The position numbers and the translations under genes were made by a program. Shown here one piece after another: positions 56,488-59,384 of a stretch of 64,000 bases of DNA. The notes below the pieces were generated by a model that worked only from the letters and a program-made list of their open reading frames with translations, had not been told where the DNA came from and made no database searches. Position 1 is the first letter of the stretch, and the number at the start of each line of letters is the position of its first letter. The stretch comes from Bacteroidota bacterium (GTDB taxonomy: Bacteria > Bacteroidota > JABWAT01). Where the stretch lies: NCBI GenBank assembly GCA_013360915.1, contig JABWAT010000002.1:446098-510097 (forward strand), written 5' to 3'.

Positions 56488-57393
56488 ATGTCATCACTGT
56501 TTAATCGTCTTGTTGTTGCATCGATCCCACTGGTACCCAAACCGATCGTACGGTATTTTGCCCGGCCGTATATCGCGGGTGAGTCACTGGCTGATGCATT
56601 GAACACCATCCGGGATATCAATCGTCTGGGAGCCATGGCTACCTGTGATTTACTGGGTGAATTCATTACCGAAAAATCTCAGGCTACCCGTGACCTGGAA
56701 GAATTAAAAAACCTGATACGGGCCATTCATCAGGAGAAACTCAATTCCAATGTCAGTGTAAAGCCCACCCAGATGGGTTTGTTGCTGGATGAGGAATTTG
56801 CTTATTCAAACATCAGGGAATTGGTACAGCTTGCCAGTCAGACGGGGAATTTTATCCGGATTGATATGGAAGATTCCGCGTGTACTCAGAAAGAGATCGA
56901 CCTGTACCTGCGCCTGAAGAAGGAATTTTCGAACGTTGGACTGGTAATTCAGGCCTACCTGAAGCGGACCAATGCAGACATTGATCTGCTGGTTAAGGAA
57001 AATGCCAACCTGAGACTTTGTAAAGGCATTTACCGGGAACCGGCCGAAATCGCCATTCACGACCGCGAGGCCATCCGGGCCAGTTTCCTCCGTCAGGTCG
57101 AGCAAATGTTTATTCACAACTGTTATGTAGGCGTGGCAACCCATGATGAATATCTGGTGAATGCCACCATTGAACTGGTGAAAAAACATCAGGTCCGAAA
57201 GGAAGCATTTGAGTTTCAGATGTTACTGGGCGTTCTGCCGGCCCTGAGGGACCGTATTCTTTCAGAAGGATACCGGCTCCGGATTTATGTGCCATACGGC
57301 AAACAGTGGTATGGCTATTCCACCCGCCGTTTCAAGGAAAATCCGGAAATTGCCGGATATGTTGCCAAAGCCATTTTAGGAATCAGAAAGTAA
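56488..57393 (+). CDS. Proline dehydrogenase
   Basis: 301 residues from ATG 56488, which has GAGG six bases upstream; ATG 56476 and an earlier start at 56440 are less likely given the promoter. TIM-barrel PRODH: VSVKPTQMGL, IDMEDS, FEFQMLLGV and the signature RLRIYVPYGKQWYGYSTRRFKENP that binds proline and FAD. Oxidises proline to pyrroline-5-carboxylate at the membrane. The partner P5C dehydrogenase is neither fused nor adjacent. Confidence 0.95.
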   Translation: MSSLFNRLVVASIPLVPKPIVRYFARPYIAGESLADALNTIRDINRLGAMATCDLLGEFITEKSQATRDLEELKNLIRAIHQEKLNSNVSVKPTQMGLLLDEEFAYSNIRELVQLASQTGNFIRIDMEDSACTQKEIDLYLRLKKEFSNVGLVIQAYLKRTNADIDLLVKENANLRLCKGIYREPAEIAIHDREAIRASFLRQVEQMFIHNCYVGVATHDEYLVNATIELVKKHQVRKEAFEFQMLLGVLPALRDRILSEGYRLRIYVPYGKQWYGYSTRRFKENPEIAGYVAKAILGIRK

Positions 57394-57401
57394 AACACTC
57401 A

Positions 57402-57632
57402 ATGCCCAGTATTCCACATCGCATCCCGTCCGTCCAGATACCCGGCAATTCCGGTTTTCTTAAAGGCCGGTTGGTAAACCTTATTACCACCACCGGAATT
57501 CAATTTGCAGGCACTGCAGAGTCGATTTCCGACAACTCCATCGGGATACGGGATGCCCGTGGTCACCGGCATGTGTTTGAACTGTCCGGTGTGTCAGAAG
57601 TGGTCACTGAAACCAGGGCACCGGTCCGTTGA
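57402..57632 (+). CDS. Small LSm/SH3-like beta-barrel protein, function unknown
   Basis: 76 residues. I do not recognise the family. After a short N-terminal tail the chain reads as five alternating strands (FLKGRLVNLITTTG, QFAGTAESISDN, SIGIRDARG, HRHVFELSG, VSEVVTE), the pattern of Sm-like or SH3-like barrels that bind RNA or protein. It starts nine bases after proline dehydrogenase and ends one base before the HisE-like gene, so it is probably cotranscribed with both. Confidence 0.6.
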   Translation: MPSIPHRIPSVQIPGNSGFLKGRLVNLITTTGIQFAGTAESISDNSIGIRDARGHRHVFELSGVSEVVTETRAPVR

Positions 57633-57633
57633 T

Positions 57634-58086
57634 ATGGCAGAAAAAAATCTGCAGAGTCTTCTGGCTGAGCTTCAGGATAAAATTGCACGGAATGATCCTG
57701 CCAGTAGCACCGTAAAGCTGATTTCAGGAGGGAAGCCGGCTGTTCTGATCAAACTGGTCGAGGAATCATCTGAAATCTGGATGGCTTATCGTTTTGAAAC
57801 CCAGAATGATCTTGCACTTGAACTCAGTCAGTACTGGTATTACCTGCTTGTTTTAGGATTGATTCTTCAGGAGCCAGGCTGGGCCAACCGGATCTCTTCC
57901 TGGCCTTTGAAAACACCGCTGAAGGATGAAACAGTGACTCCGAAGAAACTGGTTCAGGAAACTGCCTCTCTGGCCATCCGCTCCGGATCCTTTGGTGCCG
58001 ATGATCTGGAAAGACTTTTTCATCTTTCCTGGGAAATCGGTCAGCAACGAGAGTTGTCACTTTCAGCGGTTCTCGCACATCTTTAA
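57634..58086 (+). CDS. Tandem, degenerate HisE-like (phosphoribosyl-ATP pyrophosphohydrolase-like) protein
   Basis: 150 residues against about 90-100 for stand-alone HisE. Residues 1-90 align with HisE: SSTVKLISGGKP, then Lys40 and Glu43/44/47 of the first metal motif. The second motif ExxD-LxxH reads Glu63...Gln66...Tyr70, losing Asp and His. Residues 104-150 look like a second half-copy: KLVQETAS has lost two of three Glu, but Asp123, Glu126 and His130 (DDLERLFH) stand where the acidic pair and His belong. The two copies may complement each other, or the protein may be non-catalytic. It precedes hisG by 22 bases. Confidence 0.65.
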   Translation: MAEKNLQSLLAELQDKIARNDPASSTVKLISGGKPAVLIKLVEESSEIWMAYRFETQNDLALELSQYWYYLLVLGLILQEPGWANRISSWPLKTPLKDETVTPKKLVQETASLAIRSGSFGADDLERLFHLSWEIGQQRELSLSAVLAHL

Positions 58087-58108
58087 ACCCTTACTTCAGA
58101 GGAATATT

Positions 58109-58975
58109 ATGAAACCCAGATACCGTTTTCGGGTCGGGATCCCTAAAAATGACCGGCTGTTTTCTGAAATTTCCAGCCTGTTATACCAGGCATCACTGTG
58201 GGATGAACCCCGCCGCCGCCAGCTGTTTTCTGACCTGCATGACCAGGAATTGTCACTGATCTTCGGACGGGCCGGGGAAATCGCATTGTCACTGGCCGAT
58301 TCGAAGCTGAGCTGCGGATTTACCGGCCGTGACCTGATACTCGAACAAGCCAACCCGGATATCGTTGAGATACTTCCGCTCGGAATCGGAAAATGTCATC
58401 TGGTGTTTGCCGTTCCTTCCGATCAATTGAACCATCCCATCAGTTTCTGGGAAGGGAAAACCATTGCAACCAGCTTTGTTCACCTGACCCGTGCCTATTT
58501 CGAGAAAACCGGAACCCGCGTACATGTGAAAGAGGTATCGGGGGGAGTGGAAGGCAAAGTGGCAACCGAAGAAGCCGACGCGATTGTGGATCTGACTGAA
58601 ACAGGAACCACTCTGGAAGCCAACGGACTGCTGATAAAGGACCGTTTACTCGAAACAGAAATTGTCTTTGCCGCCCGTCGTGAATTTCTCAATGATCCGC
58701 GGGTGAGCATGATCAGAAACCGGCTGGAAGGAGTCATGACGGCCCGAAAGTCGATCATGATTGAATACATGATACCCAAAGAAAAGCTCGATGATGCCAT
58801 CCGGGTGGCCGGGGGACAGAAATCACCCACTGTGGCCCCGATTTATGGCGATGACCGTTACTTTGCTGTCCGGATTGTTGAACCAAAGTCGCGCGAAAAC
58901 GAAGTGATGGATAAACTGAAATCGATTGGTGCGGTCGGAATATTCAGTGTGCTTCTGAACAATACCCGTGTCTGA
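58109..58975 (+). CDS. hisG: ATP phosphoribosyltransferase, long form
   Basis: 288 residues from ATG 58109, with AGAGGA upstream. First step of histidine synthesis: ATP plus PRPP to phosphoribosyl-ATP. Opening RVGIPKNDRL, GFTGRDLILE, PLGIGKCHLVFAVP, and the PRPP loop AIVDLTETGTTLEANGL. The last ~75 residues (APIYGDDRYFAVRIVEP) form the ACT-like histidine-sensing domain of long HisG, so it should be feedback inhibited. Other his genes are not in the window. Confidence 0.92.
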   Translation: MKPRYRFRVGIPKNDRLFSEISSLLYQASLWDEPRRRQLFSDLHDQELSLIFGRAGEIALSLADSKLSCGFTGRDLILEQANPDIVEILPLGIGKCHLVFAVPSDQLNHPISFWEGKTIATSFVHLTRAYFEKTGTRVHVKEVSGGVEGKVATEEADAIVDLTETGTTLEANGLLIKDRLLETEIVFAARREFLNDPRVSMIRNRLEGVMTARKSIMIEYMIPKEKLDDAIRVAGGQKSPTVAPIYGDDRYFAVRIVEPKSRENEVMDKLKSIGAVGIFSVLLNNTRV

Positions 58976-59384
58976 CCCCATCCGGTTATCTTTACTGAAC
59001 CTGAGTCTGTTTGCCCCGGATGGCCGCTGTGTCAACCTGCGAGGGAATGATCTGCAGGCTGACCAGGTACCAATTCCACTGACCAGTCTGTTGTCTGAAC
59101 CCATTTTCTTCCCGGATGATTTTGGTGGCTTTCCGGTTCCTCCTGTGGTTCACCGGGATTCTGCGGGGAATCTCTGGCTGGACTGGACTGAATCAACCGC
59201 GATGTCGTCTGCCGAAGTGGTTACGTGTCTGACAGACCGGATTTTTCAGATTTGTCTCGAATGGTCCCATGAATTTCCGGGAAGTCAGGTTCAGATTCTG
59301 GATGGAGAGGCGGTTCATCCCGATTGGGTCAATCATGTTGTGAAGAGGCTCGGGCCCGTCTTTCCGCTGAAAATCGGTTCCTGA
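58968..59384 (+). CDS. Hypothetical protein
   Basis: 138 residues from GTG 58968, overlapping hisG by eight bases. I do not recognise it. No signal peptide or membrane helix. The middle is rich in Pro, Phe and Asp (LLSEPIFFPDDFGGFPVPP). The C-terminal half has alternating strands and helices (VTCLTDRIFQICLEW, SQVQILDG). Codon use looks like its neighbours. Overlap with hisG suggests coexpression. The stop is directly followed by the rimP promoter. Confidence 0.6.
   Translation: MSDPIRLSLLNLSLFAPDGRCVNLRGNDLQADQVPIPLTSLLSEPIFFPDDFGGFPVPPVVHRDSAGNLWLDWTESTAMSSAEVVTCLTDRIFQICLEWSHEFPGSQVQILDGEAVHPDWVNHVVKRLGPVFPLKIGS

Follow-up and report, generated by a model that had tools for sequence, protein, structure and literature searches.

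The locus lies within a window of 64,000 nucleotides (the whole stretch of DNA that was analysed) and, in agreement with the first-pass annotation, comprises a 150-residue HisE-like protein encoded beside a long-form hisG carrying the HisG_C domain (Table 1). HisE is phosphoribosyl-ATP pyrophosphohydrolase, which catalyses step two of histidine synthesis. The hisE reading frame is a genuine gene, and hisG starts 22 nt downstream of its end. Upstream on the same strand are a proline dehydrogenase-like gene (56488 to 57393) and a small 76-aa open reading frame (ORF; 57405 to 57632). The latter has a counterpart in relative L007 (36% identity), was not recovered by tblastn in the other two relatives, and matches no Pfam family. 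Downstream, a 138-aa ORF (58968 to 59384, plus strand) overlaps the hisG end and is possibly coupled with hisG in translation; it matches no Pfam family, and each of the three relatives has a counterpart 3' of hisG, two of these being clear and one weak, with about 31% identity over residues 67 to 136. Compared with the three relatives, the proline dehydrogenase-like protein is 73 to 74% identical, HisG 76%, and HisE about 36%.

Table 1. Features of the extended hisE gene and the adjoining hisG (window coordinates)
Feature	Position	Strand	Basis
hisE gene, extended form, 150 aa	57634..58086	+	ORF translation; TIGR03188 and PRK00400.1-1 matches; full-length relatives in three genomes
Catalytic HisE copy, residues 1-79, helices 6-19, 25-31, 33-54, 57-78	57634..57870	+	Profile and PDB matches (residues 2-74); Foldseek to 1y6x
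First metal motif EExxE, Glu43/Glu44/Glu47	57760..57774	+	Invariant in 39 aligned HisEs
Second metal helix, Glu63xxGln66 and Tyr69-Tyr70	57820..57843	+	Glu63, Gln66, Tyr69 invariant in 39 HisEs
Putative degenerate second half-copy, residues 103-150, helices 103-115, 122-138, 143-147	57940..58083	+	AlphaFold2; hhalign to HisE
HisE C-terminal motif LSLSAVLAHL, at chain end	58054..58083	+	Alignments
hisG, long form with regulatory C-terminal domain, 288 aa	58109..58975	+	PF01634 1e-37, PF08029 4.6e-17, TIGR00070, TIGR03455

The N-terminal part of the protein is recognized by the NCBI equivalog model for HisE, TIGR03188, which scores 43.0 bits on residues 2 to 74, just above its cut-off of 42.7 (53.8, 44.7, and 41.0 bits for three relatives). 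The 150-aa protein also matches PRK00400.1-1 (4e-15) and, in the PDB, the HisEs of Streptomyces (3e-11) and Mycobacterium (7e-10). The Pfam PRA-PH model stays below its gathering score (13.9 versus 21.3 bits); this miss is a sensitivity limit of a model spanning several lineages, and the NCBIfam models, which are more specific, are matched. Judged by sequence, residues 2 to 74 are a HisE of the actinobacterial type and are not degenerate.

The catalytic residues are consistent with this assignment. Glu43, Glu44, and Glu47 of the EExxE motif, which the first-pass annotation had rightly placed in the first copy, are invariant across 39 aligned sequences. The same annotation had considered the second metal helix lost, as Gln66 and Tyr70 occupy the places of the expected Asp and His, yet the second metal helix characteristic of actinobacterial HisE, ExxQ-x-x-Y, is present (Glu63, Gln66, and Tyr69). 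Among 94 single-domain relatives (from Actinomycetota, Fibrobacterota, Chloroflexota, Verrucomicrobiota, and other Bacteroidota), a sample biased to the actinobacterial-type subfamily in that single-domain loci were picked by patterns including EExxE and ELSQ, the position of Gln66 is Gln in 94 of 94, and position 70 is His, Tyr, Trp, or Gln in 61, 19, 13, and 1, respectively (Tyr or Trp in 32 of 94). Sixteen other Bacteroidota loci were taken from a profile search instead, and their residue pattern agrees. In the solved HisEs 1y6x and 1yxb the supposed ExxD motif is EISQ, its last residue being Gln as in the extended protein, and Trp takes the place of the expected His in the M. tuberculosis enzyme. 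Because the generic Asp is absent from the whole subfamily, including the solved enzymes, Gln66 and Tyr70 are no sign of degeneration. Disruption of hisE in Corynebacterium glutamicum, whose HisE is 62% identical to that of M. tuberculosis, results in histidine auxotrophy (PMC3896937), which is genetic evidence that HisE of the actinobacterial type works. From the conserved residues we infer enzyme activity, and the 150-aa protein would be a functionally ordinary HisE with an intact active site.

Full-length relatives were found in three genomes of the same family and another genus, with 32 to 36% identity; two of them are the Bacteroidetes bacterium isolates UWPOB_BACT1 and BAC1 (GTDB). All four genomes share the gene order proline dehydrogenase-like gene, extended hisE, hisG. 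The extended architecture was seen in just these four genomes, all of one Bacteroidota family, and none of the 394 genomes from the rest of the phylum gave a full-length match. A scan of genome contigs with the single whole-protein sequence found no relatives, whereas a scan with the four-row alignment found 308. Glu43, Glu44, Glu47, Glu63, Gln66, Trp68, Tyr69, and Tyr70 are invariant in all four proteins; the C-terminal half has Lys104 as its sole invariant polar residue and no invariant acid or His, residue 130 being His, Thr, Gly, or Arg. Identity of the relatives to the window protein is 45 to 49% in the first half and 13 to 24% in the C-terminal half, and such faster change is as expected for a part retained for packing alone. 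In the HisE tree the four extended proteins sit on a long stem of 2.45 changes per column.

The rest of the histidine pathway had been reported as absent, which is correct for the window but not for the genome (99.35% complete). HisI (a 112-aa ORF), HisA, HisF, and HisH are grouped on contig C6, HisD is on contig C19, and HisB is on contig C5, in a check that covered these six proteins; the pathway is therefore scattered, not missing, and the missing-pathway reading was rejected. A normal HisE elsewhere in the host genome was looked for and none was found, nor was a second HisE found in any of the three relatives; the other weak matches in all four genomes are ORFs of MazG length. The 150-aa protein is thus the sole HisE within a his pathway that is spread over contigs and complete enough to need one. 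The position next to hisG is a common arrangement for HisE of the actinobacterial type: hisG is the next gene downstream, on the same strand and within about 550 nt, at 64 of 78 single-domain hisE loci and at 16 of 16 such loci in Bacteroidota. Scattered his genes with hisE directly upstream of hisG are also found in Rhodothermota, e.g., Salinibacter (PMC8305728), and in C. glutamicum (PMC3896937), and Chlorobi and many Rhodothermota are reported to have a HisIE whose HisE part is reduced to 19 to 25 residues (PMC8305728).

What sets the protein apart is about 60 to 70 residues beyond an ordinary HisE, the unusual part being residues 80 to 150. Profile searches of the two halves, as the first-pass annotation had proposed, placed the first over the TIGR03188 cut-off and left the second without a library match; Pfam and NCBIfam searches with residues 90 to 150 gave no credible match, with one 10.9-bit match to YaaA. 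The claim that the protein aligns twice with HisE holds for residues 2 to 74 and in part for the C-terminal half. A profile of the latter, built from the three full-length relatives and the window protein, can be aligned colinearly to single-domain HisE over its second half (columns 47 to 97, score 27.3, P 1.3e-4) with the KKLV stretch in the right register, and hhalign from residue 102 on returns HisE columns 45 to 97 (P 3.6e-5). The score was reached by 0 of 200 column shuffles, and the reversed profile also falls below it. Most of this signal comes from the last ~11 residues; when they are removed, significance is lost (the score is reached in 13/200 or 6/200 shuffles), so that duplication and insertion cannot be told apart by sequence alone. 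As far as the alignments go, homology of the C-terminal tail appears firmly supported and that of a second EExxE helix weakly. Single-domain HisE ends in GL(T/S)LEDVYxHL, 23 residues after the Gln, whereas the C-terminal motif LSLxDVxxHL of the extended protein (here LSLSAVLAHL) comes 84 residues after Gln66, a delay of about 60 residues relative to the single-domain enzymes. In the gap-free alignment of the tail, His130 stands opposite Tyr69, not opposite the His site, contrary to its proposed role as a retained catalytic His.

The AlphaFold2 model of the whole chain (39 sequences; mean pLDDT 92.9, pTM 0.89) consists of helices 6-19, 25-31, 33-54, 57-78, and 83-88, followed by 103-115, 122-138, and 143-147, so that a long-long-short helix order is predicted twice. 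The same helices are predicted, at low confidence (pLDDT 67), when the C-terminal half is folded by itself with no alignment as input. In Foldseek comparisons the first copy resembles 1y6x (TM 0.86 over the target), while the whole chain (136 to 172 columns) matches the dimeric dUTPases 5myd, 5myf, 5mil, 1ogk, and 1w2y with probabilities of 0.5 to 0.96 and TMq values up to 0.57, the E values being weak (0.27 to 1.9) and the rmsd 4.6 to 9.8 Å. No dUTPase family of Pfam or NCBIfam was matched at E<=10, and in the predicted model the likeness to dUTPases is one of fold alone.

We consider it fairly likely that the gene encodes a working HisE in which partial internal duplication has produced a single-chain pseudo-dimer with one active site. 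The four-helix bundle of HisE is built from two helices of each of two chains (PMC8102479). In the extended protein, the duplication would have added a second, degenerate set made up of the final pair of long helices and the short helix at the end; this half-copy would have lost the metal site and would supply the two helices of the partner within the same chain, acting as a built-in partner. Each chain would then hold one active site, formed, together with Mg2+, by the first-copy residues Glu43/44/47, Glu63, and Gln66. Duplication is favored because structure prediction, profile comparison, and the displaced C-terminal motif point to it, and to that extent the intragenic duplication suggested earlier stands. 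A functional HisE that is still a homodimer and carries an unrelated helical hairpin of ~60 residues, inserted after the last long helix and ahead of the C-terminal motif, would also explain why that motif occurs just once, at the very end, why the match of the C-terminal half to HisE comes mostly from it, and why this half diverges so fast. Such an insertion seems rather unlikely to us, however, because the short helix 83-88 predicted after the first long pair, together with the one at the end, repeats the full HisE element order, the KKLV stretch is in register, and the whole chain resembles the duplicated dUTPases.

The first-pass annotation had offered two further readings. One was a composite active site, with the first metal motif contributed by copy 1 and the second by copy 2, and it drew on the generic Asp and His missing from copy 1 and on the acids and His130 present in copy 2 of the window protein. 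Conservation led us to reject it as extremely improbable, since the first copy holds the whole set typical of the subfamily, Gln66 and Tyr70 included, whereas His130 varies and the second copy has no invariant acid or His among the four relatives. The other was a nonenzymatic subunit regulating HisG, or a member of a nucleotide pathway that had been repurposed, with which both the adjoining hisG and the long branch in the HisE tree would be compatible; it is nonetheless improbable given the conserved catalytic set, the lack of another HisE in a genome that has the rest of the pathway, and the frequency of hisE-hisG adjacency among ordinary HisEs.

The novelty of the protein lies in its architecture, which is uncommon, whereas its enzyme function is ordinary; no HisE pseudo-dimers were found in a literature search, although older work may exist. 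A duplication by which a helix bundle of two chains came to lie within one is believed to connect HisE, MazG, and dimeric dUTPases. If read correctly, the extended HisE would have gone through a similar step independently while remaining in its hisE-hisG operon, and, as the phylum also contains single-domain relatives, the effect on activity and stability could be tested directly. The analysis also corrects a likely misreading, as a HisE with Gln and Tyr in its second metal helix need not be inactive.

Among known systems, the actinobacterial HisEs (M. tuberculosis 1y6x/3c90, Streptomyces coelicolor 1yxb; PRK00400.1-1) resemble residues 1 to 74, which span the catalytic core, and share the EExxE ... 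ExxQ motifs and the hisE-hisG gene order; however, they have about 87 rather than about 150 residues and lack the motif displacement of about 60 residues, the extra helical half-copy, and the accelerated divergence. The bifunctional HisIE of most Bacteroidota performs the same second step of histidine synthesis, whereas HisI and HisE are separate genes in the source genome. The dimeric dUTPases (C. jejuni 1w2y, trypanosomatid 1ogk, staphylococcal phage 5myd) have the four-helix bundle in one chain, an arrangement ascribed to an ancestral duplication, and a single catalytic half; in the C. jejuni enzyme the one-chain bundle was attributed to gene duplication of a MazG-like ancestor (PMC2954211). 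The predicted whole-chain structure of the extended HisE is similar to theirs, but identity is 8 to 14% (Foldseek), the sequence relation is no closer than superfamily, and the dUTPases act on another substrate, whereas the extended HisE has the sequence, operon, and pathway of HisE. On balance, it seems likely that a Bacteroidota lineage has turned a homodimeric HisE into a single-chain pseudo-dimer, repeating the route by which dimeric dUTPases have been proposed to arise from MazG-like ancestors.
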